From positions 1 through 64,000 of the forward strand of contig NZ_JADOEL010000011.1 in NCBI RefSeq assembly GCF_015645465.1: a DNA stretch of 64,000 nucleotides, given 5' to 3'. Positions within the stretch are counted from its first letter, which is position 1. The number at the start of each line of letters is the position of its first letter. This document shows, one piece after another, positions 5,029 through 44,792 of the stretch. Source of the stretch: Herminiimonas contaminans. GTDB lineage: Bacteria > Pseudomonadota > Gammaproteobacteria > Burkholderiales > Burkholderiaceae_D. The notes beneath the pieces were generated by a model. The model ran no database searches. It was given only the letters and a program-made list of their open reading frames with translations, and was not told where the DNA came from. The position numbers and the translations under genes are program-made.

Positions 5029-5065
5029 GCCGCAAAACAAATAAAAAATCCTGAGGATGCGAGAG

Positions 5066-6295: not shown

Positions 6296-6313
6296 TGATT
6301 ATTGGGAGGGAAA

Positions 6314-6634: not shown

Positions 6635-6652
6635 TTCTCTGCTGTGGTTACA

Positions 6653-7267: not shown

Positions 7268-7444
7268 GGTTTGCTTTCGTTCTGTGGTGAAGACGCTCCG
7301 TTGTTGGCTGCTACGGCCAAATTGCCGAATAGCGTAGACTAGGGCGTGCCGGGTCTTTCAAATCATCAGTACTTGCATCATACTTTGACATTGCTTTTCA
7401 CAACTGTCACTTTCAACCACGAAGCAAAAGATCGATATCGCATA

Positions 7445-7885: not shown

Positions 7886-7891
7886 GGTGAA

Positions 7892-7914
7892 ACAGGGCGG
7901 CCATGCCGCCCTGT
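7892..7914. terminator. Bidirectional terminator between nicR and nicF
   Basis: ACAGGGCGGC (7892-7901) pairs with GCCGCCCTGT (7905-7914) around a CAT loop. It sits between two convergent genes. The T-rich run after it on the plus strand is short (TTGTATTTG), so termination may be only moderate. Confidence 0.7.
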
Positions 7915-7933
7915 TGTATTTGCATTGAAAATA

Positions 7934-8566: not shown

Positions 8567-8578
8567 GATGACTCCTGT

Positions 8579-9631: not shown

Positions 9632-9663
9632 GGCATTTCCTTTGCAATGATGAGTGTAGGTGC

Positions 9664-10488
9664 TTAAAACCTGGTGCCGAGAAAGTCGCCAAATGCTGCG
9701 TAGAAACCGCTTTCGTCATCCCACGGAATCATGTGGCCGGCATTCTGTACGTGGGCGACCTTGACTTGTGGCATGAGGCTGCAGATTTCTTCGATGTCCT
9801 GCGGCATCAGGACATTGCCGCGACCCGCGACGATGAGTAAGGACGGTATCTTGATATGCGGAAGGTCCTGGTGGATGTCATCAGAATGAAAGCCATTAAA
9901 GCTTTCAATGACGGCGCGTTCATCGCAGGTATGCAGCCATTCGGCGCGCAGCTGTAATTGCTCCTGGCTCCAGCTGGGACAAAAAGTGCGCATCTGTTCG
10001 ACTGAACATCCTTCGCGCGCGTAGCGCATCGAGTCGACATACCAGGCCAGTTGCGACGGGTAGGCGCGCCGGCCGGGACCGGATACCGGTGGGTCTATCA
10101 TGACCAGTGACGTCAGTCCTGTTGCTTGGGTGCGCGCGGCGCGTATGCCGATGCGGCCGCCCATCGAATGGCCGACTATCGCATAGTTCCGAAGCCCGAG
10201 TGCCTTCGCAAATTCAATCACGTCTGTGGCCTGGGTCTCGAGGCTGTAATCCAGCTCTGCATTGGCCGAAGAGAGCCCGCGTCCCCTGACATCCAGGATG
10301 TAAGTATCAAAGTATTGACCCAAGCGCTCGCCGACAAAGCCCCAGGTGATGGCGGGACTGGTAATGCCGGGAATGATGATGATTGCATCGCGCTCGGCGC
10401 GTGCTCCCAGCTTGCCGCCATATCGGAGATAGTGTTGCCGTATGCCGTTGGCCTGGATATGGGCACCGTATAAAAAGGTAGTCGTCAT
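9664..10488 (-). CDS. nicD: N-formylmaleamate deformylase (alpha/beta hydrolase)
   Basis: A 274-residue alpha/beta hydrolase. The nucleophile elbow is GHSMGG with Ser108; Asp132 (MIDPP) and His252 (AGHMIPW) complete the triad. NicD hydrolyses N-formylmaleamate to maleamate and formate. I start it at MTTTFLYG (10488), which leaves 28 bases after nicE; the longer frame from 10548 would overlap nicE. The formate released may link to the general metabolism, not to the formamidase locus at 38 kb. Confidence 0.92.
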   Translation of the reverse strand: MTTTFLYGAHIQANGIRQHYLRYGGKLGARAERDAIIIIPGITSPAITWGFVGERLGQYFDTYILDVRGRGLSSANAELDYSLETQATDVIEFAKALGLRNYAIVGHSMGGRIGIRAARTQATGLTSLVMIDPPVSGPGRRAYPSQLAWYVDSMRYAREGCSVEQMRTFCPSWSQEQLQLRAEWLHTCDERAVIESFNGFHSDDIHQDLPHIKIPSLLIVAGRGNVLMPQDIEEICSLMPQVKVAHVQNAGHMIPWDDESGFYAAFGDFLGTRF

Positions 10489-10516
10489 GATGTCTGATGT
10501 CGCCTGGATAAGTGGT

Positions 10517-11269
10517 TTAGTAAGCGCCGGAGAGTAGGGCGCCGGCACCGGGCACGATAGGTTCGAGGTTCAGACGCTTGAGCATTGCGTAAGTCGTTGC
10601 CACCGCAGCTGTAATGACAGGTTTGCCGGTCATGGCTTCGACTTGTGCGATCACTGGTAACGATGGCATTTGCACGCATGCGGATAAAACAATCGCATCG
10701 ACATTCGAGGTATCCATCTGGGCCACGATGGCGGGAAGGAGGGCGGGGTCGTGGCGTCCGACTTCCAGGTTGTCCGGGATTTCGAGGGCGCGATAATCAG
10801 CCACTTCATAGCCTTCATGGCGGATATAGTCGACGACCAGTTCGGTCAATGGCTTCATGTAAGGTGCAACCACGACGATCTTCTTTGCGCCGATTACTTT
10901 CAACGCATCAATCAAGGCGCCGGCACTGGTAACGACAGGCGCATCCGCGCCATTGGCTGCAGTGTGTGCGGTCAGTCTTTGCTCGGATTGACGGTGGTAG
11001 CCACGCCCCATTGCCATGATCGCCACCAGGCAGGCATATCCCAGTACATCCACGCGCGCATCGCTTAGCTCAAGCGCGCAACGATCAGACTCGGCGTCCA
11101 TTGCTGCGAGCTCCTCTTTTACTACCTTCTTCATGCGCATACGGCTGGAATGAAAGGTGAATTTTTCTGGCCGTATCATTTGGCGTGCCATCAGCATCGC
11201 CGGTATTTCAGTCTCCATCGTGGTGTTTGAGCTGGGCACGATTTGTCCGATACGAAATTTATTTTGCAT
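10517..11269 (-). CDS. nicE: Maleate cis-trans isomerase
   Basis: A 250-residue Asp/Glu racemase-superfamily enzyme that turns maleate into fumarate, the last step of the nic pathway. The two active-site cysteines are Cys80 (LGYACLVAI) and Cys198 (VLSACVQMPSL), and VPSSNTTMETEIP marks the substrate-binding start. The start MQNKFRIG is supported by GGAG nine bases upstream. The longer frame from 11332 would put the NicR-like box at 11319-11336 inside the gene. It is first in the nicEDXF operon. Confidence 0.92.
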   Translation of the reverse strand: MQNKFRIGQIVPSSNTTMETEIPAMLMARQMIRPEKFTFHSSRMRMKKVVKEELAAMDAESDRCALELSDARVDVLGYACLVAIMAMGRGYHRQSEQRLTAHTAANGADAPVVTSAGALIDALKVIGAKKIVVVAPYMKPLTELVVDYIRHEGYEVADYRALEIPDNLEVGRHDPALLPAIVAQMDTSNVDAIVLSACVQMPSLPVIAQVEAMTGKPVITAAVATTYAMLKRLNLEPIVPGAGALLSGAY

Positions 11270-11318
11270 TTTTATGATCTCCAAGGTATTTGAAAGTGCT
11301 GCTGATTGATGCGGATTA

Positions 11319-11336
11319 AATAGCGTGTACATTATA
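11319..11336. promoter_or_regulatory. NicR-like operator for the nicEDXF operon
   Basis: AATAGCGTGTACATTATA matches the palindrome at 793-810 in 14 of 18 positions. It lies 50 bases upstream of the nicE start codon, a usual position for a repressor site. Confidence 0.55.
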
Positions 11337-11441
11337 ATTAATCATTTCAATCCACTTTGCAAGTTCAGAATTTATCCAGCGGAAAATTATTGGAATGATC
11401 GTTTTATTTCAGTACTTATATAGGATAGATGTATTTATTAA

Positions 11442-12731
<1,290 letters not shown>

Positions 12732-12762
12732 TCAGTCATTCACAAATTTTCATGTGTTAGCG

Positions 12763-12796
12763 AAAAAGGGGCAGCCGAAAAGGTGCCCCTTTTTTC
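12763..12796 (+). terminator. Rho-independent terminator after nicC
   Basis: AAAAAGGGGCA (12763-12773) pairs with TGCCCCTTTTT (12784-12794) around a ten-base loop and is followed by further T residues. It ends nicC transcription 32 bases after the stop codon and closes the nic island on this side. Confidence 0.85.
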
Positions 12797-12992
12797 TTGC
12801 CGACGGCTCTTTGCGTTCCTATTTGTAGCTTGAATATGACAGTTCGATGACGCAATGCCGGGGTCGATTGATGATTTCATTCAGTTGCACAAAAATTTGA
12901 ACTATTTATGCTGTGTACTTACCTAATTCATCCGCCGGAAAAAATCGAAACGCTTAATATAGTCATTAAGTAGCGAACGAAAGTGGGATGAG

Positions 12993-14522
12993 ATGGAAGT
13001 CGAACTGAAATTATTGATACGGCCGCAAGATATCCAGTCTTTCAAGAAGCATGTCTTGATCAGGAAATACGCGCAGGGCGCTCCGGTCGAGCAGAATCAG
13101 CTGGATATTTATTTCGATACCGATGATCACGATTTGAAACAATGCGCTGCGGGTCTACGGGTACGGCAAGTCGGTAAAGCCTGGACGCAAACATTGAAGG
13201 CCGGTGGGAGCGTCGTCAACGGCTTGCATCAGCGGCATGAATGGGAATCGGTGGTGCATCGTGCCGAACCGGATCTGTATGCATTGCGCAAGATGATAGA
13301 CGTGCGTGGTGCATGGGATCACTTGCTTGCATCACCGAAATTCGCAGCACGCTTGCGTCCCATCTTTACGACCACGGTGAGCAGGACGATCTGGCAATTG
13401 CAGCTGTCCAACGGCAGCGAAATCGAGTGCGTGCTGGACCAGGGCAATATCAGCCATGCAGATCGCAATGACGCGGTCAGCGAAGTTGAGCTGGAACTGA
13501 AGTCGGGCAAAGCATCGCATCTGTTCGGGTTTGCTCTGGAGTTGCTGAAGAAAGTACCGTTACGCATAGAGAATCTCAGTAAGGCCGAGCGCGGATATAT
13601 TTTGCACGCGCAGGAGAAGCCGGGTGCGGTGAAAGCTGAGAGTTTGCGGTTGTCGAAGAATATGACGATGAACCAGGCTTTCGCCACTATCGTCGAAAAT
13701 TGTTTGCGTCAGGTGCAGGCAAATGCGCCCGGTGTGATCGCAGCAGATAGCATGGAAAGCCTGCATCAGATGCGCATAGGGCTGCGCAGATTGCGCTCCG
13801 CTCTGAAGCTATTCCAGGAATTGATTACGCTGCCGGAAGACCTAAAGGAGGAGCTGGAATGGTTGTCCGATGCCATCAGTGCCGCGCGTGACTGGGATGT
13901 GCTGGCGACGAAGACGCTGGCAACGATCAGGACTGATGCGGTGGATGACGAGCTGGACGAGGTCAGGCAGGCGGCTTTGGCAAAAGCAGTGCTGCTGCAT
14001 CAGGTTGCCGCCTCGGCCGTTGACTCGGTACGCTACACACGTCTGATACTGAGTCTTGCGCATTGGTTGCAAGATGGGGCATGGCGTGAATCGCTGCCAC
14101 CGCTCAAGGGTAAGGATTTGCGTAAACGCCTGAAAATGTTTTCGCAGGACATGCTGGAGAAAGACCAGCAGCGCCTGAAGAAGCGTGGCCGCCAGTTGAA
14201 AGATGCAGATGCGAAAACACGCCACCGAGTACGTATAGCGGCGAAGAAGATGCGTTACGACACCGAATTCTTTCAGTCGCTGTATCCATCGCGTGAAACG
14301 AAAGAATACGTCGCTGCATTGGCTGATTTGCAGGATGGTTTGGGCAGCCTGAATGATATCGCGGTAGGTGATGAGTTGTTGTCGCAGATCGAGAAAGATC
14401 AATCTGAACTGACCGGCATCACCGGCTTTATCCGTGGCTATCTTGCCGCTCGTGCGGCGGAAGACGAGTGCAAGGTCAAGAAGTTGTGGAAGAAGTTTAA
14501 GGCCAAGCAGTTTCCTGAGTGA
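12993..14522 (+). CDS. CYTH-CHAD domain protein (inorganic triphosphatase-like)
   Basis: A 509-residue protein. Residues 1-200 form a CYTH domain opening with the EXEXK motif (EVELK at 2-6), as in tripolyphosphatases such as E. coli YgiF. Residues ~220-490 are an alpha-helical CHAD domain with repeated basic and histidine motifs (LHQMRIGLRRLRS, KTRHRVRIAAKKMRYDTEF), which binds polyphosphate. The pair suggests hydrolysis of tripolyphosphate or sensing of polyphosphate granules. It stands alone between the nic island and the DUF3455 gene. Fold assignment is sure; the in vivo substrate is not. Confidence 0.9.
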   Translation: MEVELKLLIRPQDIQSFKKHVLIRKYAQGAPVEQNQLDIYFDTDDHDLKQCAAGLRVRQVGKAWTQTLKAGGSVVNGLHQRHEWESVVHRAEPDLYALRKMIDVRGAWDHLLASPKFAARLRPIFTTTVSRTIWQLQLSNGSEIECVLDQGNISHADRNDAVSEVELELKSGKASHLFGFALELLKKVPLRIENLSKAERGYILHAQEKPGAVKAESLRLSKNMTMNQAFATIVENCLRQVQANAPGVIAADSMESLHQMRIGLRRLRSALKLFQELITLPEDLKEELEWLSDAISAARDWDVLATKTLATIRTDAVDDELDEVRQAALAKAVLLHQVAASAVDSVRYTRLILSLAHWLQDGAWRESLPPLKGKDLRKRLKMFSQDMLEKDQQRLKKRGRQLKDADAKTRHRVRIAAKKMRYDTEFFQSLYPSRETKEYVAALADLQDGLGSLNDIAVGDELLSQIEKDQSELTGITGFIRGYLAARAAEDECKVKKLWKKFKAKQFPE

Positions 14523-18455: not shown

Positions 18456-21400
18456 TTACTGGAAGTCGCGGCTGGAGATGGAGAGCTCGCCGAGCAGCTC
18501 CGAGTGATCGACGATGCGTTTGGCGACCAGGTGACGCACATCGTCTTTCGATTGCCAGATGCCGTAGACAGTCATCAATTGCGCATTCAGGATTTCCTTG
18601 CGTTGTTTGTCGACCAGGTCGGGCCAGATGATGACGTTGGTGATGCCGGTTTCATCTTCCAGTGTAACGAACATGGTGCCTTTGGCGGTCGGTGGCCGTT
18701 GCCGCATGGTGACGATGCCGGTGGTGCGTGCCAGCTTGCGGTTGGCGAAGCCTTTCATTTCCAGTGCCGTTGATAAGTTCATTTGCTTGAGTCGTGGGCG
18801 CAGCAAAGCGAGTGGATGGCGCTGCAGGGTCAGGCCGGTACTGGCATAGTCGGCGATGATTTCCTGACCTTCACTGGCCGGTGGCAGAATTAATGGCGCT
18901 TCCACTATAGGTGCGTCGCGCAAAAGGGCTGGTGGTGGCAGCATGCCAGCAACTTCCCATTTGGCCTGGCGCCGATGTCCGGTCAGCGCGAGCAGTGCAT
19001 TGGCGCGTGCCAGTGCGCCCAGTTCATGCTGATCCAGTGCGGCGCGGCGTGCCAGGTCATCGGTATTGCTGAAGCTGCGATGGGTACGCGCCTCGACTAT
19101 GCGTTCCGCCGCAGCCAGCGATAATCCTTTGACCATATGCAGGCCCAGTCGTACTGCCGGATATTGCGCGTGTAGGTCTTCCATCGTGGAGTCAGTCTCG
19201 CTGATCATGATGTCGACCGGACGGACCGGTACACCATGACGTTTCGCATCCTGTACCAGCTGCGACGCGGAATAAAAGCCCATTGGTTGCGAGTTCAGCA
19301 GTGCGGCGAGGAAGGCGGCTGGTTCGTGGCACTTGATCCATGCCGAGACATAAACCAGCAGCGCGAAGCTGGCGGCATGCGATTCGGGGAAGCCGTATTC
19401 GCCGAAGCCCTTGATTTGTTCGAACAGGCGATCGGCGAAATCAGAGTCGTAACCATTCCGGGCGAGACCTGCCTTTAGTTTTTCGCCGTCTTTTTCCAGA
19501 TTGCCTTTGCGTTTCCATGCTGCCATGGAACGGCGCAAATCATCGGCTTCACCGGGAGTGAAATCTGCTGCGAGTACTGCAATTTGCATTACTTGTTCCT
19601 GGAAAATAGGAACCCCACAAGTGCGGGATAGCGCTTCTTTGATTTTTTCGCCGGGGTAAGGTACATCCTCTTTCTTCATGCGCCGGTTCTTCAGATAAGG
19701 ATGCACCATGCCACCCTGTATCGGTCCCGGCCTGACGATGGCGACCTGTATCACCAGGTCGTAATAACAGGTAGGACGCAGGCGCGGCAACATGGACATT
19801 TGCGCGCGCGATTCGATCTGGAAGACGCCTATGGTATCGGCGGCGCAAATCATTTCGTAGGTGGCGGCATCATCATCATGGATGTCTTGCAGTTCGAAGT
19901 CACAGCCACGCCGCTGGCTTATCATTTTCAGTGCACGCTGTATCGCCGATAACATACCCAGTGCGAGCACGTCGACTTTCAAAAAGCCGAGTGCATCCAG
20001 ATCATCCTTGTCCCATTCAATGACGTTACGATTTTCCATCGCGGCGTTTTCTATCGGTACCAGTCGCGCCAGACTGTCGTGCGCGATGACAAAGCCGCCG
20101 GTGTGCTGCGATAGATGGCGTGGAAAGCCGATCAGCGTTTGCGTTAGCTCGACCAGCTTTTGCACTATGGGCGAGTCCGGATCAAAACCGTTTTCCTGCA
20201 GGCGATCTGCGCCTATTTGTTTACCGTCCCACCATTTATGCGATTGCGACAGGCGATTGACCTGCTCAAAGTCCAGCCCCAGTGCCTTGCCGACATCCTT
20301 CATCGCCGAGCGTGGCCGATAGGTGATGAGGGCGGCAGTTAATGCGGCACGATGGCGGCCGTATTTGTCGTAAATGTATTGCATGACTTCTTCACGTCGT
20401 TGATGTTCGAAGTCGACATCGATGTCCGGCGGTTCATTGCGCTCACGGGAAATGAAACGTTCAAACAGGACACTGCTGCGTGACGGATCGACCTCGGTGA
20501 TGCCGAGGCAATAGCAGACGATGGAGTTGGCCGCCGAGCCACGTCCCTGGCACAGGATTTTTTTGCTGCGCGCGAATTTGACGATGTCGTATACCGTGAG
20601 GAAGTAAGGTTCATAGCGCAGTTCGTGGATCAGGCTGAGCTCATGTTCTATCTGCTTCTGGAATTTCTCCGGGATGCCATTCTTGTAGCGTTTTTGCGTC
20701 GCGCCTTCATAGGTCAGGCGACGCAGATAGGCTGACATGGTTTCCCCGGCAGGAACGATTTCTTTTGGATATTGATAGCGCAATTCTTCCAGCGAAAATT
20801 CACAGAGTGCAGCCAGCTTCAGTGTTTCTTCCAGCAAGGCAGCCGGATAAACCTGCGACAGCCGTAAACGTGAACGCAGATGCTGTTCGGCATTAGGTTG
20901 CAAATCCATCCCGCATTCGGCTATCGATTTGCTGAGCCGTACCGCGGTCAACGTGTCTTGCAGAGGTTTGCGCGAACGCACATGCATGAGCACATCACCC
21001 ATCGCGACCAAAGGCAACGTATGTTGCACAGCCAGTTCTTTTAATTGTGCATGCCAGTGCTCATCACCTGACCAGTGCAGCAGCTCAAGCGCTATCCATG
21101 CATGTTTGCTGAATGTTTGCCTGAACCATGCGGCTTGTTCGCTTAATTCGTCGTAACTGGCGCAGCGTTGTGGCAGCAGGATGGCGAGGCAATCCGGTAA
21201 GTGCATCAGATGTGCAGCGCTGGCATCAAGCTGGGCGTCCAGGTCGCTGCGATACAAGGTATAGCTGCCTTTCACCGCACGCCGTCGTGCCAGCGTAATC
21301 AGTTCGGATAAATTGCCATAGCCTTCCTTGTTCTGTGCCAGGAAGAGCAGTTTCGTGCCACAAGCCAGTTTGATTTCGCTGCCTATGATCAGATGCAGTT

Positions 21401-21587
21401 CGCGCTTTTTTGCTTCCACATGTGCGCGGACTACGCCCGCGAGCGAACATTCATCGGTAATCGCGAGGCTGCTGTAGCCGAGGTCGCAGGCGCGTTCTAC
21501 CAGCTCTTCCGGATGCGAAGCACCGTGCAGGAAAGTGAAGTTGGAGCGGCAATGCAATTCCGCATAGGAGGGCAGGCTGGGCAGCAT
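18456..21587 (-). CDS. dnaE2: Error-prone DNA polymerase DnaE2 (ImuC)
   Basis: A 1043-residue C-family polymerase. The PHP domain opens with ELHCRSNFTFLHGASHPEELV. The catalytic palm has PPDIDVDFEHQRREEVMQYI with its aspartates and RGSAANSIVCYCLGI. The C-terminal OB domain has TGIVTMRQRPPTAKGTMFVTLEDE. It performs mutagenic translesion synthesis together with ImuA and ImuB. It is the last gene of the cassette, 18 bases after imuB, and is controlled by the LexA box at 23906-23929. The length fits the family. Confidence 0.95.
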   Translation of the reverse strand: MLPSLPSYAELHCRSNFTFLHGASHPEELVERACDLGYSSLAITDECSLAGVVRAHVEAKKRELHLIIGSEIKLACGTKLLFLAQNKEGYGNLSELITLARRRAVKGSYTLYRSDLDAQLDASAAHLMHLPDCLAILLPQRCASYDELSEQAAWFRQTFSKHAWIALELLHWSGDEHWHAQLKELAVQHTLPLVAMGDVLMHVRSRKPLQDTLTAVRLSKSIAECGMDLQPNAEQHLRSRLRLSQVYPAALLEETLKLAALCEFSLEELRYQYPKEIVPAGETMSAYLRRLTYEGATQKRYKNGIPEKFQKQIEHELSLIHELRYEPYFLTVYDIVKFARSKKILCQGRGSAANSIVCYCLGITEVDPSRSSVLFERFISRERNEPPDIDVDFEHQRREEVMQYIYDKYGRHRAALTAALITYRPRSAMKDVGKALGLDFEQVNRLSQSHKWWDGKQIGADRLQENGFDPDSPIVQKLVELTQTLIGFPRHLSQHTGGFVIAHDSLARLVPIENAAMENRNVIEWDKDDLDALGFLKVDVLALGMLSAIQRALKMISQRRGCDFELQDIHDDDAATYEMICAADTIGVFQIESRAQMSMLPRLRPTCYYDLVIQVAIVRPGPIQGGMVHPYLKNRRMKKEDVPYPGEKIKEALSRTCGVPIFQEQVMQIAVLAADFTPGEADDLRRSMAAWKRKGNLEKDGEKLKAGLARNGYDSDFADRLFEQIKGFGEYGFPESHAASFALLVYVSAWIKCHEPAAFLAALLNSQPMGFYSASQLVQDAKRHGVPVRPVDIMISETDSTMEDLHAQYPAVRLGLHMVKGLSLAAAERIVEARTHRSFSNTDDLARRAALDQHELGALARANALLALTGHRRQAKWEVAGMLPPPALLRDAPIVEAPLILPPASEGQEIIADYASTGLTLQRHPLALLRPRLKQMNLSTALEMKGFANRKLARTTGIVTMRQRPPTAKGTMFVTLEDETGITNVIIWPDLVDKQRKEILNAQLMTVYGIWQSKDDVRHLVAKRIVDHSELLGELSISSRDFQ

Positions 21588-21605
21588 GATGTTCTGTGTC
21601 GCATG

Positions 21606-23120
21606 TCAGGCGAATAAGCCATGCAGGAACCAGCCCGAGCCATGGGTGCTGCTGGTAGTGCGCAAGCGGAAAATCCAGAGCAATACATGTTGTTCGTTTT
21701 GCGCAATGAAGTAATCGCGTGTGGCCAACGCGTCATCCCACCAACCGGACTCTATGCGCTCGGGGCCGGTCAGCAAGGTCAGCGGGCTTTGGTAAAAAGG
21801 TTTGTGTTGATGCGTGTGCAAGGCCAGTGGCTGTGGCAAGAGCCAGGTCGGTCGTACGCAATGCGGATGTGTATCGGCTACTGCATCGCGTGTATTACGG
21901 CGTGCCGCCTGTTGATAGCTGAGTACGCTGCTCATCACGCTTTTCTCCGGCCTGTGATCGGCAAAGACCGAGAGCTGGCGCACGGCCTCGTTGCCAAGTC
22001 GGCTTTGCAGACGCTCGACCAGACGTCCGGTATTTTCTGCATCCGAGCTCGGGGTCGGGAATAATTCGGTATTCGGCGCCGCCTGTGCGGTGATCTGATC
22101 TGCCTTCAGGCTGATCTCGATAACAGGTGCAATCAAGTCCAGCTGCCCCATGCGTTCACGCAACAGCAGCGCCAGGTGATCGATGTCGCGACTCGGCATG
22201 CCGAGCTGGATGTTGACCGCGGTGCTGCGATGATCGCGCTGTCGTGTGGATTCATGATGCAGATAAAGTGTGATGCCAGTGACGGCGGCATGGCGTGCAC
22301 TGAGCCAGCCTGTCAGTTGCAGCAGCAGGCGGCGTGCGGCAAACAGCAGGGCTTCGGTATGCTCGACACGCGCTGGTAATTCCAGTTTGACGTCGAAAAT
22401 GGCGGGCGCTTCAAACCACTGGTGTGCTTCTGCTTCGGTGCCGTAAGCCCGATCCAGTTCACTCAGCAGCGCCTGGCCGAAGCGACGCGCGACACCGGCG
22501 CGCGGCAATTGACGCAAGTCACCGAGACGGCGACAGCCTATGCCAGCCAGCGTATCCAGATGCGCTTGCGCATGGTCCAGCACATGCAGTGGCAAGGAAT
22601 CGAGCGCTGCGCTGATATCGCCATCATGGGCAAACACTTGTGTGATGCCTGCTGTTTGCGCGCGTAACCAGGCCCCGCCTGCAGTCGCGGCACTGGCCAG
22701 GCGTGCGTGCAGGCCGAGTTCCAGCAAACCGCTGAGTAATTGCGTGGCGATGCGTTGATGACCGCCAAACAGGCGCAGGCTGGCACCGACTTCGAGCAAC
22801 AAACCATCAGGACGTAATACGACATGTGGTGTGAAGTGCAGACTCCACAGCGCGGCTTCTTCCAGTGCCTTGCTTTCCTGCGCCGGATCGCGCGGCAACG
22901 CCTGCAAGTCAGCGGCCAGCGCGCGTGCACTGGCTTCCGAGTTGCCCGCACATATGCCTGCGTCATCCGCCAGTTGATTGCACCAGCCTACGACGTTCCG
23001 TTCGCATATGACGATGGGGACATGGTCATATGGATCCGGCTCGCAGGAGATATGCCTAAGCCGGCAACGGAGCGCGGCGTCGAGCGGCAGTTGCGGCAAG
23101 TGTAGGGCGATCCACAGCAT
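21606..23120 (-). CDS. imuB: Y-family polymerase-like protein ImuB
   Basis: A 504-residue protein of the ImuB branch. The start MLWIALHLPQLPLD replaces the catalytic DxD region of active Y-family polymerases, so it is expected to lack polymerase activity and serve as the hub linking ImuA, DnaE2 and the beta clamp. LLLEVGASLRLFGG and LAGIGCRRLGDLRQLPRAGVARRFG (thumb/HhH) are recognisable. It overlaps the end of imuA by 65 bases. Confidence 0.9.
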   Translation of the reverse strand: MLWIALHLPQLPLDAALRCRLRHISCEPDPYDHVPIVICERNVVGWCNQLADDAGICAGNSEASARALAADLQALPRDPAQESKALEEAALWSLHFTPHVVLRPDGLLLEVGASLRLFGGHQRIATQLLSGLLELGLHARLASAATAGGAWLRAQTAGITQVFAHDGDISAALDSLPLHVLDHAQAHLDTLAGIGCRRLGDLRQLPRAGVARRFGQALLSELDRAYGTEAEAHQWFEAPAIFDVKLELPARVEHTEALLFAARRLLLQLTGWLSARHAAVTGITLYLHHESTRQRDHRSTAVNIQLGMPSRDIDHLALLLRERMGQLDLIAPVIEISLKADQITAQAAPNTELFPTPSSDAENTGRLVERLQSRLGNEAVRQLSVFADHRPEKSVMSSVLSYQQAARRNTRDAVADTHPHCVRPTWLLPQPLALHTHQHKPFYQSPLTLLTGPERIESGWWDDALATRDYFIAQNEQHVLLWIFRLRTTSSTHGSGWFLHGLFA

Positions 23121-36828: not shown

Positions 36829-37365
36829 TCAGAAGGTAGCGGGAATTCGTTTTTCATATTCCGCTTCCAGCCGCGCATGCGTGGCCCAGAACTGGCGCGG
36901 TTGCTGCTGATTCAGGCGGTCCTCCAATATGCCCAGATGGATATGCCAGCCGCTGGAAACACTGACCATCTCTTTGCGATTCGGCAGGCGACTATGGGTT
37001 AGCGTGAGCAGGGTTTTATCGCCTTGCGCCTTGAGTTCAAAGCGTACTTCTGACGAGCGGCCATCGCGTTCATTCCATGTGAAGCTAAGCAGGTAGGGCG
37101 GTTCACAGGCGGTGACATGACCGTGCTGCCGGTGATTCGATTCATAAGGCAGGAAACGTTCCGGCGTGGTTTCGCTGGTCAGGTTCTTGAAGTTGAAACA
37201 GAGGTCGGCCGGGCCGCCTACGTGCAAGCCCATGTCGCCGGAAGCCAGCCAGGTCGCACGTTTGTCTGATTGCGTAAGGTATTCCCATACGACATCGACA
37301 CTGGCCGGTAATAGCTTGTTCATGTGTACGGTTGTGTTGTCTGTTGCTACGCCATATTCGTCCAT
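36829..37365 (-). CDS. SRPBCC/AHSA1-family protein
   Basis: A 178-residue START-like protein. It has KLLPASVDVVWEYLTQSDKRATWLASGDMGLHVGGPADLCF near the start and LLSFTWNERDGRSSEVRFELKAQGDKTLLTLTHSRLP in the middle, as in AHSA1 domains. It overlaps the stop codon of an ArsR gene (TAATG). ArsR-AHSA1 pairs are common; the ligand of the START-like cavity is unknown. Confidence 0.85.
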   Translation of the reverse strand: MDEYGVATDNTTVHMNKLLPASVDVVWEYLTQSDKRATWLASGDMGLHVGGPADLCFNFKNLTSETTPERFLPYESNHRQHGHVTACEPPYLLSFTWNERDGRSSEVRFELKAQGDKTLLTLTHSRLPNRKEMVSVSSGWHIHLGILEDRLNQQQPRQFWATHARLEAEYEKRIPATF

Positions 37366-37703
37366 TACTTTCTCCTTTTTTTCGCCAGTAATTCCTGTTC
37401 CAGCGCATCCAGGCGCTCGGTCCAGAATCCTTGATAAAAGCGCAGCCAGTCTTCGGCGGCGGCTAGTGGTGCAGCTTCCAATGTGCAGATATGCGAGCGA
37501 CCTTGTACGGTACGACTGACCAGTCCCGCATGTTCCAGTGCCTTGACATGCTTGGACGCGCCAGCGAACGACATTTCGAAAGGCGCAGCCAGCTCGCCTA
37601 TCGTGCGTTCACCGTCGGCCAGCAGGCGCAGCATCTGGCGTCGTGTCGGATCGCTCAGCGCATTGAAGACGGCATCGAGTTTTGAGGAATTTAATTCAAC
37701 CAT
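37365..37703 (-). CDS. ArsR-family transcriptional regulator
   Basis: A 112-residue winged-helix repressor. It starts NSSKLDAVFNALSDPTRRQMLRLLADGERTIGELA and has FEMSFAGASKHVKALEHAGLV as recognition region. It lacks the ELCVCDL metal-binding cysteines of ArsR or SmtB, so a metal is unlikely as effector. A perfect palindrome covers its start codon and a second one lies 40 bases upstream, indicating autorepression of the ArsR-AHSA1 operon. Confidence 0.88.
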   Translation of the reverse strand: MVELNSSKLDAVFNALSDPTRRQMLRLLADGERTIGELAAPFEMSFAGASKHVKALEHAGLVSRTVQGRSHICTLEAAPLAAAEDWLRFYQGFWTERLDALEQELLAKKRRK

Positions 37704-37847: not shown

Positions 37848-38363
37848 TTACTTCAGTACGCCGTTAAGCAGCAGGAAGCCAGGCAGCCAGCCGGTGAAGA
37901 TGCCGCACAGCAAGGCAACCACACCAGTGATTTTGGCGATTTGCTTTTCTGCCACCAGCAGCAGGAAGAACATAAACCACAATACCGCCCATGCCGCCCA
38001 ACTCAGGCCGAACCAGGTGCCCCAGGTCGTGGTTGCGGTTTGCAGGGTTTCGATTGCGACCGGAATCGCCGTGATGGCTACGAACAGGCTGAACCAGCCG
38101 AGGCCGCGTCCATCAGCACCGTTAAAGCGATTGAAGGCGACCCAGAGGTAGGTGAAAGAAAACAGCAGGGTGAGTGCCGCGCCCTTGATAGATCCGGCAT
38201 CGGCATTGGCACCGAACGCCATTTGCAGCGAAATCAGCAGCGTGACGCCGCCGGAAAATACATTGATGACCCAGATTTCCTTGTCGCCTATGCGACCGAG
38301 TAGCCACAGGCCGTTGAGGCACAGGACTGCGCCTACGTAGAGTAGTGAAAGACCTAATAGCAT
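37848..38363 (-). CDS. AmiS/UreI-family amide or urea channel
   Basis: A 171-residue membrane protein with six hydrophobic segments. It has the AmiS pattern LLYVGAVLCLNGLWLLGRI, FSGGVTLLISLQMAFG and FTYLWVAFNRFNGADGRGLGWFSLFVA. Members form pH-gated or constitutive pores for urea and short amides. As third gene after formamidase it should bring formamide or acetamide into the cell. Confidence 0.9.
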   Translation of the reverse strand: MLLGLSLLYVGAVLCLNGLWLLGRIGDKEIWVINVFSGGVTLLISLQMAFGANADAGSIKGAALTLLFSFTYLWVAFNRFNGADGRGLGWFSLFVAITAIPVAIETLQTATTTWGTWFGLSWAAWAVLWFMFFLLLVAEKQIAKITGVVALLCGIFTGWLPGFLLLNGVLK

Positions 38364-38526: not shown

Positions 38527-38874
38527 TCAGTGGCTGATCATCCATGGTCGCTTACCGGCGAAAGCCTTGTTGCCATTCGGCGCGACGATGGTGGATTTAC
38601 TCTTCTTGCCAGATGAAGAGCAGCAACTGCATCCGGAAGGATGCGCTTTGGATGCGTAGTTCTTGGAACTCATCGGTTCATGCGATGCTCTTTCGTTGGT
38701 GCTCATCGCATGTCGACGGGTTTCCGGCATCAGCGCCAGGCTCGGCGCGGACGACCAGGTACGGTCAGCCTTGGCCGCGCAGTGCGGGCAATCGATAGGA
38801 TCGTTGCGCGCAGCGATAGTGCGCACCGCTTCGAAGAAACCGCAGTCCTTGCAGACGTAATCGTAGGTTGGCAT
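38527..38874 (-). CDS. fmdB: FmdB-type zinc-ribbon protein
   Basis: A 115-residue protein with an N-terminal zinc ribbon: MPTYDYVCKDCGFFE, then IDCPHCAAK, giving two Cys pairs. It ends with a cysteine-rich tail (SGCSCCSSSGKKSK). FmdB accompanies formamidase in Methylophilus and has been viewed as regulatory. It starts 12 bases after fmdA. Confidence 0.88.
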   Translation of the reverse strand: MPTYDYVCKDCGFFEAVRTIAARNDPIDCPHCAAKADRTWSSAPSLALMPETRRHAMSTNERASHEPMSSKNYASKAHPSGCSCCSSSGKKSKSTIVAPNGNKAFAGKRPWMISH

Positions 38875-38886
38875 GACTTTCTCCTA

Positions 38887-40119
38887 TTACTTGAGATCGC
38901 GCGACAGAGGCATACCCATGCTTTTGAATTTCTGCACCACAGGGCCGGCAGAACTCGGGTTGATATCAAAGTCAAAGATCTGCGTTGGTAACCACAAGGT
39001 AGCGCAGGAGTTAGGAATATCAACCACGCCGCTGATGTGGCCTTGCACTGGTGCCGTACCCAGAATCGAATAAGCCTGTGCACCGGAGTAACCGAATTTT
39101 TTCAGGTACTCAATGGCGTTCAGGCAAGCCTGGCGGTAAGCGACGTTGACGTCGAGGTAATGCTGCTTGCCGTGTTCATCCACCGAGATACCTTCAAAGA
39201 TCAGGTAGTCGTTGTAATGCGGTGTGATAGGGCTAGGTTTGAAGATAGGATTCTTGATGCCATAGGTGGCCATGCCGCCTTTGATCACCGTGACCTTCAT
39301 GTGTACCCAGCCAGCCATTTCAATCGCGCCGCAGAAGGTGATTTCACCATCGCCCTGGCTGAAGTGCAAATCGCCGACCGACAGGCCTGCGCCTTTGACA
39401 TAGACCGGGAAGAAAATTTTTGAACCGCGCGACAAATCCTTGATGTCGCAGTTACCGCCGTGTTCACGTGGTGGCACGGTGCGTGCGCCTTCGGCTGCTG
39501 CCTTGTCGCGTGCTGCACCTTTCATTTTGCCCATGTGCGCAGTCGGTGCGAATGGCGCATTGGCCAGTGGCGGGACGCGATCAGGTTCGGTTGCGATCAG
39601 GCCGGTTTCACGCTTGTTCCATTCAGCCAGCAGCTTAGGATCTGGCAGGCAGCCGATCAGGCCAGGGTGGATAAGGCCTGCGTAGTTCACGCCTGGTACG
39701 TGGCGTGATGAGGTGAACATACCTTTGATGTCCCAGATCGATTTTTGCGCTTCAGGGAAGTGGTCGGTCAGGAAGCCGCCGCCGTTCTTCTTCGAGAAGA
39801 AACCGTTGAAGCCCCACATCGATTCCTGCTTGGCACCGATGTCGAGCAATTCGACGACCAGCAAATCACCTGGTTCTGCAGTGTGTACGCCGACCGGTCC
39901 GGTCAGGAAGTGGACGGTGGTGAGGTCAACGTCGCGGACGTCGTCGGCACTATCATTGTTCTTGATGTAGCCGCCGGTCCAGTCATATGTTTCGAGGATG
40001 AAGTCGTCGCCCGGGTTGACCCAGGTCGCCATCGGAATGTCCGAATGCCAGCGGTTATGGACATTCTCATTATCGTAGGGTGATTGATCCAGATCTACTT
40101 TAATCAGGGTTTCAGCCAT
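38887..40119 (-). CDS. fmdA: Formamidase
   Basis: A 410-residue enzyme of the acetamidase/formamidase family that hydrolyses formamide to formate and ammonia. Recognisable parts are IKVDLDQSPYDNENVHNRWHSDIPMATW at the start, GPVGVHTAEPGDLLVVELLDIGA, HPGLIGCLPD, HGGNCDIKDLSRGSKIFFPVYVKGAGLSVGDLHFSQGDGE and a C-terminal VVDIPNSCATLWLPTQIFDFD. It is first in the fmdA-fmdB-amiS operon and divergent from a sensor kinase carrying a permease domain, probably its regulator. Confidence 0.94.
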   Translation of the reverse strand: MAETLIKVDLDQSPYDNENVHNRWHSDIPMATWVNPGDDFILETYDWTGGYIKNNDSADDVRDVDLTTVHFLTGPVGVHTAEPGDLLVVELLDIGAKQESMWGFNGFFSKKNGGGFLTDHFPEAQKSIWDIKGMFTSSRHVPGVNYAGLIHPGLIGCLPDPKLLAEWNKRETGLIATEPDRVPPLANAPFAPTAHMGKMKGAARDKAAAEGARTVPPREHGGNCDIKDLSRGSKIFFPVYVKGAGLSVGDLHFSQGDGEITFCGAIEMAGWVHMKVTVIKGGMATYGIKNPIFKPSPITPHYNDYLIFEGISVDEHGKQHYLDVNVAYRQACLNAIEYLKKFGYSGAQAYSILGTAPVQGHISGVVDIPNSCATLWLPTQIFDFDINPSSAGPVVQKFKSMGMPLSRDLK

Positions 40120-40492
40120 GATGTCTACCTCTCAAAGTTATGTTTGTATGGATGGAACCCGGATTTCCCCGATGCTGACTATCCAGCGCGCGCGCACCTG
40201 GAGACTGCGATCCGAGCATTCCGAACCAGATAATGTATGGACTGTGCGTATATCCCAATACGTCAAACGGCGTACATGCAAAACTGCTGATGCTGCTTGC
40301 GGGATGGAAACTCACCTTGTGAAATATTTTCAATTCCTGTAATTTGAAAAAGCAGGCAGAATTTGCAGGAGACTATCGTTGACGATGTATGCGATATAAA
40401 AATCAAATAACGCGCATGAACGTGACGACAATTAAGAACCGGCTTGTATTGCGACGCAGCATTTGCAGCCTATCCAATTCTTCATCTAGCTG
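40120..40492. promoter_or_regulatory. Divergent control region of fmdA and the permease-kinase gene
   Basis: These 373 bases contain no supported gene. They must hold both promoters. An inverted repeat CGTAT-N6-ATACG lies at 40247-40262, and a further CGTCAAACGGCGTA follows it at 40261; the LuxR-type regulator at 43845-44792 could bind here. No sigma-54 promoter with the GG-N10-GC signature was noticed. The repeat is short and the link is inferred. Confidence 0.4.
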
Positions 40493-43400
40493 ATGGCCCA
40501 ACAAAAAATCTTTCGCATACGTCGCGAGTACAACCGATGGGTCGCCAACGAGTCGATTGAAGATTACGCATTGCGCTATACGCCGCGCCATTTCCGCAAA
40601 TGGTCGGAGTGGCAGTTGGGCAATGCCGCATTCGGTGCGGCATCCTTCCTCGCGCTGGAAGCAATCGGTGGGGCGATTGCACTGAACTACGGCTTCGCCA
40701 ATGCCGTCACTGCGATCCTGACGGTGATGCTGATTACTTTCCTGACTGGCCTGCCTATCAGTTACTACGCAGCACGTTACGGCATCGATATGGATTTGCT
40801 GACGCGTGGTGCCGGATTTGGCTACATGGGTTCAACCATCAGTTCGCTGATTTATGCCAGCTTCACCATCATCTTCTTTGCACTGGAGGCGGCGATACTC
40901 GCCGTCGCCTTGCAGATGTGGATACCGTGGCCGCTGTGGATCTGGTATGTGATTTGCGCGCTGTTTATCGTGCCGCTGGTGGCGCGCGGGATTACTTTGA
41001 TTTCGCGTTTGCAGATGTGGACGCAGCCGCTATGGCTGATACTGCTGGTCACGCCGTATATCGCGATCTACTGGAAGAAGCCGGAGGCCTACACCGAGTT
41101 TGCACAATTCGTCGGTGCGATTTCCAAAAGCAATAGCCTGGATCCCGTCATGTTTGGCGTGGCGGCGACGGTCGCGTTTTCACTGGTGGCGCAGATAGGC
41201 GAGCAGGTCGACTTCCTGCGCTTCCTGCCCGAGCGTACACCTGAAAACAAACGGCGCTGGTGGACTGCCATCATCGTGGCCGGTGCTGGCTGGATCATCC
41301 CGGGTGGTTTGAAAATGTTGGGCGGTGCCTTCCTCGCTTACCTGGTATTCCAGAGTGGCGTGCCTGCAGAGAATGCGATGGAACCAACACGCATGTACCT
41401 GCTTGGTTTTTCTTATCTGTTCAGTGATCCGCTGTGGATACTGGCAATCACTTTGTTGTTTGTCGTGGTGTCGCAGGTCAAGATCAACCTGACGAATGCC
41501 TATGCCGGTTCGCTGGCCTGGTCGAATTTCTTCGCGCGCCTGACACATAGTCATCCGGGGCGGGTGGTGTGGCTGGTCTTCAATTGCCTGCTGGCTTTGC
41601 TACTGATGAACCTCGGTGTTTTCGCCGCACTGGAAAACGTACTCGGTTTGTATAGCAATGTGGCAGTGGCATGGGTAGGTGCATTGGTCGCCGATCTGGT
41701 CATCAATAAACCGCTCGGCTGGAGTCCGAAAGGGATCGAATTCAAGCGCGCGCATCTATATGACATCAATCCGGTTGGACTCGGCACCATGCTCTTGTCC
41801 GCCAGTATAGGGATAGCTGCTTTCTCCGGCGTATGGGGGCACAAGGTTGCAGCCTTCTCGCCGTTCGTTACGCTGGGCATGGCCTTTATTGTTTCGCCTG
41901 TGCTGGCGTGGCTCACTCGTGGTCGTTACTATCTGGCGCGGCGTCCGACTGCAGTCGGTATGCCGGGACAAGCGGTGAAATGTGGCGTTTGCGATAACAG
42001 CTTTGAATCAGAAGACATGGCGCATTGTCCGGCATATGGCGCGCCTATCTGCTCGCTCTGCTGCACACTGGAATCGCGTTGCCATGACTTGTGCAAAAAG
42101 GAATCGCGTACTGCCGAGCAGGCGCAGCAACTATTGTCCGCCTTGCTGCCGAACGCCTTGTCGCATCTGGTCAACCGTCGCGTCGGCAACTACATGGTGG
42201 TGGTGTTGTCTTTATGCGCAGTCGGTGCTGCAGCGCTCGGACTGGTCTATGCACAGGAAATTTCTACACTCACTTCATTGAGTGATCGTGTACTGCTCGA
42301 CAGTATCTTCCTCAAGATATCTGCCGTGTTGTTGATCATCGTCGCTGTTTCCAGCTGGTGGGTGGTGCTTGGCAGTGAAGGGCGGCATCTGGCGCAGGAT
42401 GATTTGAACCGGCAAAACGAATTGCTGACGCAAGAGATAGACGCGCACCAACGCACCGATGCCGCCTTGCAAAGTGCGAAGGAAGCTGCCGAGTCGGCAA
42501 ACCAGGCGAAGACGCGTTACGTTGCCGGTATCTCGCATGAGTTGCGCTCGCCATTGAACAGCATCCTCGGCTATTCGCAAATCCTGCTGAAGAATGAACA
42601 GTTGGATGCCGCACCGCGTACCGCAATCCAGACCATACAGCGCAGCGGTGAACACTTGCTCGGGCTGGTGGATGAGTTGCTGGATCTGGCACGCATAGAA
42701 GCGGATCGCATGCGGCTGGAACCGACACCGATTTTATTTGCGGCCTTCCTCGATGATTTGCTCAGCATGGTGCGGCCACAGGCAGAAGCCAAGGGCTTGC
42801 GTTTGCAATACACGCATGGCGGCGACTTGCCGCATTACGTGCTGGCGGATGGCAAACGTTTGCGGCAGATATTGATTAATCTGCTGACGAATGCGTTGCG
42901 CTTTACCGATACTGGTTCCGTTACGCTGCACGTCGAATGCACCAGTGCATCCATGCGCTTCGATGTGATCGATACCGGCATCGGGATTGCAGTGCAGGAC
43001 AGGCAACGTATCTTCCAGCCGTTTGAACGTGGCGCTGCCGGACGCTTGCGTGGCGAGCCGGGTGCAGGGCTGGGACTGGCGATTACCGAGAAGCTGATCC
43101 TGATGATGAATGGCAGCCTCAACCTGATCAGTACGCAGGGACAGGGCAGTACCTTCGTCGTGCGTTTGCCACTGATGGAAATCAATGCTTTCGAAGCCTT
43201 GCCGCAACGCGATGTGATCGGCCATACCGGTGCCACGCGTACCTTGCTGGTGGTGGATGACCAGCCGGTGCAAAGACATATGCTGAGTGGCATGCTGATA
43301 CCGCTGGGTTTCAATGTGCGCGAAGCTGCCAGCGGCCATGAGTGCCTCGATTTGCTACGTGATTTTGTGCCGGTTGTGATCCTGCTGGATATCGGCATGG

Positions 43401-43870
43401 ATGGTATGGACGGTTGGGAAACGGCGCGTCATGTACGTGCATTCAGCGGAACCGATGTGCCGATTATCTTTGTGTCGGCTGATTTGTTTGAGAACGATCA
43501 GGAAAAATTACGCGCTGCAGGATGCCAGGACTTTGTCGGCAAACCGGTGCTGGAGTCGGAGCTGATGCTGGCCTTGCAAAGACAGCTGGGACTGGAATGG
43601 ATTTATGCCAGCACACCGCCGCTCGTGCCTGTTACCGAAGCGGTACCGGAAAGCTTGAGCTTCAGGCAACCTGCGATAGGGCAATTATTACAACTCACAC
43701 GCATGGGCCACGTCGCCGGTTTGCGTCGTGCGCTGGATCGTCTGTCGTTGACAGAAGACGCGACAGTCGTGGCATCCTGCAACGTAGTAAGATCATTGCT
43801 GGACCGTTTTGAGTTGGGCGCATTGGAGAACGCATTAATGGAGAATGAACGTGTCGCATCACCTGATTGA
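40493..43870 (+). CDS. NCS1 permease fused to hybrid sensor histidine kinase
   Basis: An 1125-residue fusion. Residues ~30-480 form a complete cytosine/purine-type NCS1 permease with about twelve membrane segments (FLALEAIGGAIALNYGFANAV, LTRGAGFGYMGSTISSLIY). Residues ~500-545 are Cys-rich (CGVCDNSFESEDMAHC, CSLCC). Two more membrane helices follow, then a short coiled coil, the HisKA domain with His682 (ISHELRSPLNSILG), the ATPase domain (RLRQILINLLTNALRF, GAGLGLAI) and a receiver with Asp966 (ILLDIGMDGMDG). It probably senses an amide or nucleobase through transport or binding and phosphorylates the next gene's product. The N-terminal start rests on MAQQKIFRIRREYNRWVAN. Confidence 0.9.
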   Translation: MAQQKIFRIRREYNRWVANESIEDYALRYTPRHFRKWSEWQLGNAAFGAASFLALEAIGGAIALNYGFANAVTAILTVMLITFLTGLPISYYAARYGIDMDLLTRGAGFGYMGSTISSLIYASFTIIFFALEAAILAVALQMWIPWPLWIWYVICALFIVPLVARGITLISRLQMWTQPLWLILLVTPYIAIYWKKPEAYTEFAQFVGAISKSNSLDPVMFGVAATVAFSLVAQIGEQVDFLRFLPERTPENKRRWWTAIIVAGAGWIIPGGLKMLGGAFLAYLVFQSGVPAENAMEPTRMYLLGFSYLFSDPLWILAITLLFVVVSQVKINLTNAYAGSLAWSNFFARLTHSHPGRVVWLVFNCLLALLLMNLGVFAALENVLGLYSNVAVAWVGALVADLVINKPLGWSPKGIEFKRAHLYDINPVGLGTMLLSASIGIAAFSGVWGHKVAAFSPFVTLGMAFIVSPVLAWLTRGRYYLARRPTAVGMPGQAVKCGVCDNSFESEDMAHCPAYGAPICSLCCTLESRCHDLCKKESRTAEQAQQLLSALLPNALSHLVNRRVGNYMVVVLSLCAVGAAALGLVYAQEISTLTSLSDRVLLDSIFLKISAVLLIIVAVSSWWVVLGSEGRHLAQDDLNRQNELLTQEIDAHQRTDAALQSAKEAAESANQAKTRYVAGISHELRSPLNSILGYSQILLKNEQLDAAPRTAIQTIQRSGEHLLGLVDELLDLARIEADRMRLEPTPILFAAFLDDLLSMVRPQAEAKGLRLQYTHGGDLPHYVLADGKRLRQILINLLTNALRFTDTGSVTLHVECTSASMRFDVIDTGIGIAVQDRQRIFQPFERGAAGRLRGEPGAGLGLAITEKLILMMNGSLNLISTQGQGSTFVVRLPLMEINAFEALPQRDVIGHTGATRTLLVVDDQPVQRHMLSGMLIPLGFNVREAASGHECLDLLRDFVPVVILLDIGMDGMDGWETARHVRAFSGTDVPIIFVSADLFENDQEKLRAAGCQDFVGKPVLESELMLALQRQLGLEWIYASTPPLVPVTEAVPESLSFRQPAIGQLLQLTRMGHVAGLRRALDRLSLTEDATVVASCNVVRSLLDRFELGALENALMENERVASPD

Positions 43871-44792
43871 TAATCCTGATGACCGTCCGGTGGTATTGCT
43901 GGTCGACGATGCTCCGAGCAGCCTCGGCGTACTGTGCGAAACACTGGAAGACGCCGGTTATACCGTGCTGGTGGCCTGCGATGGCGATACCGCCTTGCGT
44001 CGCCTGAGCCTGGTGACGCCGGACGTGATCCTGATGGATGCGGTGATGCCGGGTATCTCCGGTTTTGACGCCTGTCGACGCATCAAGGCGGATCTGGCGA
44101 CCAAACATATCCCGATTATTTTCATGACTGGCTTGTCGGATACCTCGCATGTACTCGAAGGCTTTGCTGCCGGTGGTGTCGACTACGTGGTTAAACCGGT
44201 GCGCGCACCGGAAGTGCTGGCACGTCTGCATACGCATTTGGGCAATGCCCGTATGGCGCGCTTCGCGCTGGATGCGATTGATGTGTCCGGCCTCGGCGTC
44301 ATTATGTTGAACAACGAAGGCAGTATCTCCTGGTGCTCGCCATGTGCGCGTCAGTTGCTGACACAGTTTGGTATCAATCCGGATGCATTGACCGTACCGC
44401 AATCGTGGTGGAAAGGCAGCAGCGGCATGGAGCTCGTGGCATCTGTCACCGAACCGGCCGGAGCCAGCCTGCTGGTGCGGAATATGGGTGCGGCAGGTAT
44501 GGATGAAATCATGTTGCTGATCGAGCTGAGCGGCAGTCACGCATTGCCGACCGGACGCCTGGCCAGTGCGGCGCTCACGCCACGCGAAACAGAAGTACTG
44601 TCGTGGCTGGCCAAAGGCAAGACCAATCGCGACATCGGTGAAATCCTCAAGATGAGCCCACGCACTGTGAGCAAGCATCTCGAACACATATTTGAAAAGC
44701 TGGGTGTGGAAACACGCTCTGCTGCAGCAGCGATGGCCAGTGCACAGGAAAGTGCCGACACACGCCTCGGCTCACCGAAGTGGCCGCATTAG
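43845..44792 (+). CDS. LuxR-type response regulator
   Basis: A 315-residue regulator overlapping the kinase gene by 26 bases. The receiver has DD at 21-22, phospho-acceptor Asp65 (VILMDAVMPG) and Lys near 117 (VVKPVRAPEV). A middle segment of ~100 residues looks like a degenerate PAS domain (GVIMLNNEGSISWCS). The C-terminal LuxR helix-turn-helix reads LTPRETEVLSWLAKGKTNRDIGEILKMSPRTVSKHLEHIF. It likely activates fmdA-fmdB-amiS. Confidence 0.92.
   Translation: MNVSHHLIDNPDDRPVVLLVDDAPSSLGVLCETLEDAGYTVLVACDGDTALRRLSLVTPDVILMDAVMPGISGFDACRRIKADLATKHIPIIFMTGLSDTSHVLEGFAAGGVDYVVKPVRAPEVLARLHTHLGNARMARFALDAIDVSGLGVIMLNNEGSISWCSPCARQLLTQFGINPDALTVPQSWWKGSSGMELVASVTEPAGASLLVRNMGAAGMDEIMLLIELSGSHALPTGRLASAALTPRETEVLSWLAKGKTNRDIGEILKMSPRTVSKHLEHIFEKLGVETRSAAAAMASAQESADTRLGSPKWPH

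Follow-up and report, generated by a model that had tools for sequence, protein, structure and literature searches.

Transporter-kinase fusions are already known. In CbrA of Pseudomonas, a LeuT-superfamily permease, a small domain and a histidine kinase form one protein that is tied to the use of a nitrogen compound and is described as carrier and sensor at once (PMC13022988). The Amt-histidine kinase of Kuenenia stuttgartiensis joins an ammonium transporter domain to a histidine kinase (PMC5764959), and for the symporter-like sensor kinases of CrbS/R and RpuS/R there are links with acetate use and with a gene for a pyruvate symporter (PMC5715377, PMC9100948). The present study concerns a 64,000-nucleotide stretch of the Herminiimonas contaminans genome (contig NZ_JADOEL010000011.1, positions 1 to 64,000; hereafter the window), in which a permease of the NCS1 type is fused to a hybrid histidine kinase, next to a gene for a LuxR-type regulator and divergent from the formamidase genes fmdA-fmdB-amiS. 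Whereas CbrA combines an SLC5 permease with the four-helix bundle STAC and handles histidine, the Herminiimonas protein has an NCS1 fold, an eight-cysteine domain, a receiver attached to the kinase and a LuxR-type partner; CrbS/R and RpuS/R are also of the SLC5 and STAC type and concern other substrates, and the Kuenenia protein differs in both transporter family and ligand. What is new here is another transporter family and another linker. We consider it quite probable that fusion and regulator form a two-component system with a transceptor for short amides and urea, which would activate formamide or urea use via a palindromic operator. The case is computational and consists of the architecture, the fold, the gene neighbourhoods, the co-occurrence and a conserved site; the ligand and the direction of control we infer.

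Control of amide use has been described in other forms. The AmiC-AmiR system is likewise an amide-responsive control of an amidase operon, with the difference that a binding protein acts as the sensor and an antiterminator as the output; the same source describes an fmdA-urtABCDE cluster of Pseudomonas veronii that lacks amiC and amiR and names FmdB as positive regulator (PMC13209695). The fmdCABDEF cluster of Methylophilus is similar in combining formamidase with amide/urea uptake genes, and it is induced by formamide and urea, but the excerpted text names no permease-kinase and calls one product a "putative positive regulator" (PMC10781810). A genome-context argument from 2010 holds that the five-gene ATP-binding cassette (ABC) transporter beside formamidase carries amides (PMC3098086). 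Among the matches listed in the open-access literature, neither an NCS1-kinase fusion, nor a formamide sensor of such a kind, nor an NCS1 urea permease is described, in line with an earlier reading of the DNA made without database searches (the sequence-only reading), which knew of no formamide sensor of this architecture.

The architecture is clear. The domains that define a hybrid histidine kinase and a LuxR-type regulator were all found with Pfam, namely HisKA, HATPase_c and a receiver in the kinase and a receiver and GerE in the regulator, and the HisKA histidine and both receiver aspartates are present (Table 1). Both genes lie on the plus strand, to the right of the divergent region, and overlap by 26 nt, while fmdA-fmdB-amiS occupies the minus strand to the left. 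The open reading frames, the coupling of the kinase to a LuxR regulator and the divergence from fmdA-fmdB-amiS that the sequence-only reading had described were borne out by the frames themselves and by Pfam and NCBIfam, with fmdB and amiS lying just beyond the interval that it covered. The eight-cysteine domain, the two helices ahead of the kinase and the palindrome of the divergent region are additions to that reading. The nearest relative among the matches listed is Herminiimonas sp. KBW02, in which the sensor region is 97% identical and the gene order is conserved. The arrangement of fmdA-fmdB-amiS without an ABC transporter is common to the window and three related loci (L009-L011).

The distribution of the family was analysed in three sets of genomes. 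The best 80 of 176 relatives in a GTDB genome scan were taken as 80 loci, and the permease family was found in 18 of the 369 genomes of a class sample and in 52 of the 398 genomes of a phylum sample, for which a standalone permease (L112) served as query. The phylum sample yielded 56 loci, that is, all places found minus the window's own and one counted as L113, and one locus belongs to two sets (L163 of the phylum set is L023 of the GTDB set). The kinase query also matches 55 of the 56 phylum loci, and the open frames of the fusions span 894-1365 amino acids. Neighbouring genes were searched for in 8-9 kb on either side where contigs allow, with tblastn markers, since some open frames were spurious long frames of high-GC DNA. 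Amide or urea markers were found near 77 of the 80 GTDB loci, 11 of the 18 class loci and 54 of the 56 phylum loci, so that the synteny in other genomes, which the sequence-only reading had named as a check, was indeed observed. The phylum loci comprise formamidase with amide ABC genes (35), urease with urea ABC genes (7), urea ABC genes alone (5), urease alone (4), formamidase with amiS (2), amide ABC genes alone (1) and neither (2), the two marker-free cases being a 4.8-kb contig and a distant NCS1 protein.

Co-occurrence points in the same direction. FmdA scored above its cut-off in 40 of the 398 phylum-sample genomes, and the permease family is present in 39 of these 40 genomes versus 13 of the 358 without FmdA; 12 of these 13 are of the urease or urea-ABC type, and the remaining one is represented by a short contig (L213). 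In a FastTree tree of 101 rows, the formamidase and urease contexts need 7 changes, at least 6 of them on well-supported branches, versus 21 in shuffles (90 rows were labelled and 10 marker-free rows left out; amide-ABC genes cross-match urea-ABC queries, and rows with both were merged into the formamidase label). Because members of the family are also found beside urease and urea-ABC genes, and the context changed at least six times on the tree, the term formamide sensor is too narrow. Thus, the proposal of the sequence-only reading that the fusion senses a substrate and switches on amide use kept its tie to amide use, through synteny, co-occurrence, the standalone sisters described below and the palindrome, but not the restriction to formamide.

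A candidate operator lies within the divergent intergenic region. A palindrome was first spotted by eye when the intergenic regions of the window and of L009, L010 and L011 were compared. The search covered as much as 450 bp ahead of each permease-kinase or sister permease. The first form, TRCGT-N6-RCGTA, is present in 84 of 108 formamidase-type regions, and a TACGC variant was seen among those without it. The wider pattern TACGY-N6-RCGTA occurs in 96 of the 108, a count that is partly fitted, where 0.15 are expected from dinucleotide-preserving shuffles and none of 108 controls inside genes has a match. Many of the 108 regions come from close relatives, chiefly Variovorax; the palindrome also occurs beyond the order of the window (L111, L119) and beyond its class (e.g., L182, L190). 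In a later check, it was present in the divergent gap of all four plasmid records that combine the hybrid kinase with a formamidase gene, from Chelatococcus (L216), Burkholderia (L217), Klebsiella (L218) and Methylovirgula (L227). Loci in which the sensor is attached to another kinase (L175, L185, L221) have no palindrome, and in L220, a copy beside urea-ABC-type genes on pSymB of Sinorhizobium meliloti 2011, a match at 8292 coincides with the beginning of a urtA-like frame and is not clearly in a promoter. Neither a sigma-70-like promoter in 40000-40600 nor a sigma-54-like pattern in the intergenic region was found. The Methylovirgula record contains a second copy of the palindrome (10536-10551), 142 bp upstream of an aliphatic amidase gene, and this amidase is a possible second target of the regulator.

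The fold of the sensor was assigned by structure comparison. An AlphaFold2 model of residues 1-656, computed from 28 aligned relatives (alignment A1; mean predicted local distance difference test score 75.4), matches CodB best (Z 33.8, 395 residues, root-mean-square deviation 3.6), followed by Mhp1 (Z 27.1-29.5); these two outrank every other row listed, with the first different fold at Z 24.4 and SLC5-type rows at about 21-22, and the identity across the structural match is 14-15%. The curated sequence models are less responsive: Pfam gave no NCS1 family for the permease part even at E 10, a level at which HMMER filters may still drop weak matches, the NCBIfam cytosine permease model reached E 5.6e-5 and 22 bits, under its cut-off of 326, no SLC5 family appeared in Pfam or NCBIfam at E 10, and a PDB sequence search with the permease part yielded little. 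The full NCS1 permease of the sequence-only reading is upheld by the fold, and the curated models show at most a weak match to it. CodB and Mhp1 share this fold with the sensor and, like MetT, have no kinase; MetT, which is likened here by description alone, extends the NCS1 substrates beyond nucleobases (PMC13390362).

Since hhalign against CodB was too weak, residues were mapped with MAFFT and the fold was taken from the structure search. In both computed alignments, Arg216 and Tyr285 of CodB, which its authors describe as constant across diverse members (PMC9379551), align with the invariant Arg243 and Tyr337. The CodB ligand residues Gln105, Trp108 and Phe204 correspond to Thr125, Phe128 and Leu231 in the alignment, and therefore the binding pocket probably differs from that of CodB. 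The register of transmembrane helix 8 (TM8), which contains the sodium-binding residues of CodB, differs between the two alignments. A lysine (Lys330) filling the sodium site was considered and set aside, because TM8 falls into a different register in each of the two alignments and again when it is read by eye without gaps.

The standalone sister permeases, presumably carriers, provide further context for the ligand. Nine of 11 standalone-permease regions contain urease, formamidase or amidase genes. One permease (L111 8767-10446), 53% identical to the sensor, is divergent from the kinase gene and is itself followed by fmdA and fmdB; others lie downstream of ureBC (L112 7589-9211), directly after ureDAB-(C region, with an insertion element)-EFG in Klebsiella (L219) and ahead of ureEFG-J-DABC in Acinetobacter (two near-identical plasmid contexts). 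Further cases are divergent from fmdA-fmdB in Moraxella, near fmdB-fmdA in Tsukamurella, ahead of an aliphatic amidase gene in Arthrobacter U41, with acetate-CoA ligase further on, and between a formamidase-kinase-regulator set and an aliphatic amidase gene in Methylovirgula (L227). Where annotated, the standalone relatives are labelled hypothetical, cytosine permease or allantoin permease, and the clade members in the Klebsiella and Acinetobacter urease clusters (L219 9944-11551, L222 6959-8566 and L228 6959-8566) carry one or another of these labels; for the latter, a role as urea carrier seems likelier than the annotated names. The sequence-only reading had been puzzled that NCS1 proteins carry nucleobases, hydantoins and allantoin while the operon handles formamide. 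This difficulty is eased, in that the sensor belongs to a separate clade, the standalone members of which mostly have genes for urease, formamidase or aliphatic amidase as neighbours. Urea and formamide correspond to small fragments of the rings bound by known NCS1 carriers, and therefore a narrowed NCS1 pocket for them would be chemically reasonable.

Permease and kinase are linked by a segment that was modelled, with modest confidence, as short strands around eight cysteines and one long helix. The eight cysteines, at residues 497-534, are kept in all 151 stretches that had a tblastn match to the domain and a stop-free translation, and in all 52 rows of alignment A3, including the standalone permease of L111, which has no kinase; in the standalone permeases of L112 and Klebsiella L219 the domain is shortened and some cysteines are gone. 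It matches no Pfam family above its cut-off, and a fold search with its model gave weak resemblances to RING, FYVE and PHD-like folds, none at E 0.001. In position, the domain corresponds to STAC of CbrA; in shape, judged from this model, it seems to differ. The two helices that follow have low to middling model confidence, and their translated sequence looks hydrophobic. The C-terminal tail was also considered as a phosphotransfer (HPt) domain, a reading that was given up because the candidate histidine is a tyrosine in members such as L068, L083 and L085.

Outputs and enzymes have been exchanged in several loci. The same sensor is found beside fmdA and amiS on another kind of kinase that has no receiver attached (L175 and Paracoccus L221), in a fusion to PAS-PAS-kinase-receiver (L115) and in a fusion to PAS-GGDEF-EAL, which is not a kinase (L116 5849-9520); the flanks examined of the last two contain no amide genes. 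The Klebsiella plasmid L218 retains the sensor, the regulator, the urea/amide ABC genes and the palindrome, but the fmdA query has no match in the record; its formamidase is a member of the nitrilase superfamily, AmiF, and passes the AmiF model NF009803 with 602 bits (cut-off 406). The FmdA and AmiF groups share less than 10% similarity (PMC10781810). Because FmdA was replaced by this unrelated enzyme for the same substrate while sensor and palindrome were retained, the exchange speaks for formamide as a common theme. In this record (3900-13372), urtABCDE, the AmiF-type gene and the palindrome (one strict and one relaxed copy) lie near resistance genes and insertion elements. Relatives of the sensor occur in 531 plasmid records, 342 of which are Klebsiella by name. 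Among the matches listed, public annotation of the fusion in plasmids is mostly "ATP-binding protein" and sometimes "response regulator" or hybrid histidine kinase. We lean towards a more general formulation, in which an NCS1 clade of permeases for urea and short amides, some annotated as cytosine or allantoin permease, has been fused via a new eight-cysteine domain to several outputs (hybrid kinase, plain kinase, PAS-kinase and GGDEF-EAL), and in which the commonest fusion would be the missing formamide/urea sensor of Pseudomonadota, acting via TACGY-N6-RCGTA.

It should be noted that several observations weigh against a dedicated amide and urea system with this operator. No amide or urea marker was found near seven of the 18 class loci; two of these seven are cut short by contig ends (L124, L126), whereas in L115-L118 and L127 the marker-free upstream flank measures about 5-8 kb. 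Two of the 11 standalone regions (Streptomyces L224, Arthrobacter L229) contain no annotated amide or urea gene, and the Fisher value of 1.4e-41 for co-occurrence with FmdA overstates the association, the genomes being related. The palindrome was widened after misses in the same set, which leaves the plasmid records as the sole later check. It is not rare by itself, with 13 sites in the own genome (51 in a backward control) and about 0.3 first-form sites expected in the window; a single window site or the 13 genome sites, taken alone, would mean little. Only two of 35 urease-type regions have the strict and nine the relaxed form (0.95 expected), and two of 11 unassigned regions have a match. 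Because the palindrome is found in so few urease-type regions, these members may depend on a different site. No urease-type operator emerged from a 7-mer search.

Other explanations have to be weighed against this background. The sensor could bind a nucleobase, hydantoin or allantoin, like the described NCS1 carriers, and the link to amide genes would then reflect general nitrogen scavenging. The NCS1 fold and the cytosine or allantoin permease labels of some standalone relatives agree with this, but seven E. coli proteins of nucleobase and ureide catabolism (CodA, AllA, AllB, HyuA, RutA, RutB and SsnA) have no match at E 1e-10 in any of the three sets of loci (80, 18 and 56), a search that remote homologues could escape; moreover, the replacement of Gln105 and Trp108 of CodB and the prevalence of urease, formamidase or amidase genes beside the standalone permeases argue against it, so that we regard it as unlikely. 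A general regulator of nitrogen or energy status that merely neighbours amide genes would fit the two fusions without amide genes in their flanks (PAS-GGDEF-EAL and PAS-PAS-kinase-receiver); given the association with FmdA and the confinement of the palindrome to upstream regions in the control made, it is very improbable.

A further question, compatible with the proposed amide and urea transceptor, is whether the permease fold still transports. The sequence-only reading had suggested transport flux as the signal, and the present results speak neither for nor against this. It has close to an even chance, though somewhat below it, of being a pure receptor for the same ligands, in which occupancy instead of flux sets kinase activity. 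Most copies have genes of another uptake system (amide ABC, urea ABC or amiS) as neighbours, and the ungapped reading of TM8 by eye places the invariant Lys330 at a sodium-coordinating threonine of CodB, just as a lysine fills the Na2 site in CbrA (PMC13022988). On the other hand, neither computed alignment matches that reading exactly, CbrA is described as a histidine transporter despite its lysine (PMC13022988), and the standalone sisters keep the same residues.

Under the proposed amide and urea transceptor, the NCS1-fold domain would bind formamide, a related short amide or urea, and a conformational change would pass via the eight-cysteine domain and the two helices to the kinase. Judging from the domain content, the kinase would then phosphorylate the LuxR-type regulator, perhaps through its own receiver. 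The regulator would bind TACGY-N6-RCGTA in the divergent promoter region, as the computed conservation of the site suggests, and would switch on fmdA-fmdB-amiS in Herminiimonas and amide-ABC/formamidase or urease/urea-ABC genes in relatives.

Table 1. Features of the permease-kinase locus of Herminiimonas contaminans (window coordinates).
Feature	Position	Strand	Basis
fmdA, formamidase	38887-40119	-	NCBIfam NF045496 equivalog passed, 753 bits, cut-off 500
fmdB, zinc-ribbon protein	38527-38874	-	NCBIfam NF053663 and TIGR02605; RPWMISH_prot 150 bits, cut-off 120
amiS, AmiS/UreI-type amide/urea channel	37848-38363	-	Pfam PF02293 (AmiS_UreI) passed, 207 bits
NCS1-type permease/hybrid histidine kinase fusion, 1125 amino acids	40493-43870	+	open reading frame, translation, domains, fold
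NCS1-fold sensor domain, residues ~23-482	40559-41938	+	best structural matches CodB and Mhp1
Eight-cysteine domain, residues ~494-541	41972-42115	+	pattern C-x2-C-x11-C-x7-C-x2-CC-x5-C-x3-C
Pair of predicted helices ahead of the kinase, residues ~562-630	42176-42382	+	model and translation by eye
HisKA (phospho-acceptor His682) and HATPase_c	42506-43174	+	Pfam; SHELR motif contains His682
Attached receiver domain of the kinase (Asp966)	43247-43576	+	Pfam
Response regulator: receiver (Asp65) and LuxR/GerE DNA-binding domain	43845-44792	+	Pfam
Palindromic operator candidate TACGTCAAACGGCGTA	40259-40274	.	pattern search; within the 373-bp divergent intergenic region

Two other regions of the window were noted. 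Downstream of amiS, genes for an ArsR-type regulator and an AHSA1 protein lie in tandem (36829-37703); because the tandem was matched in L009 alone of the 80 GTDB loci, it is probably not part of the permease-kinase system. At 18456-23120, a gene of the DNA polymerase III alpha type adjoins a weak impB/mucB/samB (Y-family polymerase) match, which we take to be a possible imuB-dnaE2 mutagenesis cassette.

The fusion is a candidate sensor for the fmdA-type formamidase operons of Pseudomonadota, for which the papers compared here name none in their excerpted text. The DNA site would make the targets of the system predictable, and a substrate is proposed for a permease clade that is likely misannotated. 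In addition, a further transporter family with another linking domain becomes available for asking how the conformation of a carrier can drive a kinase.

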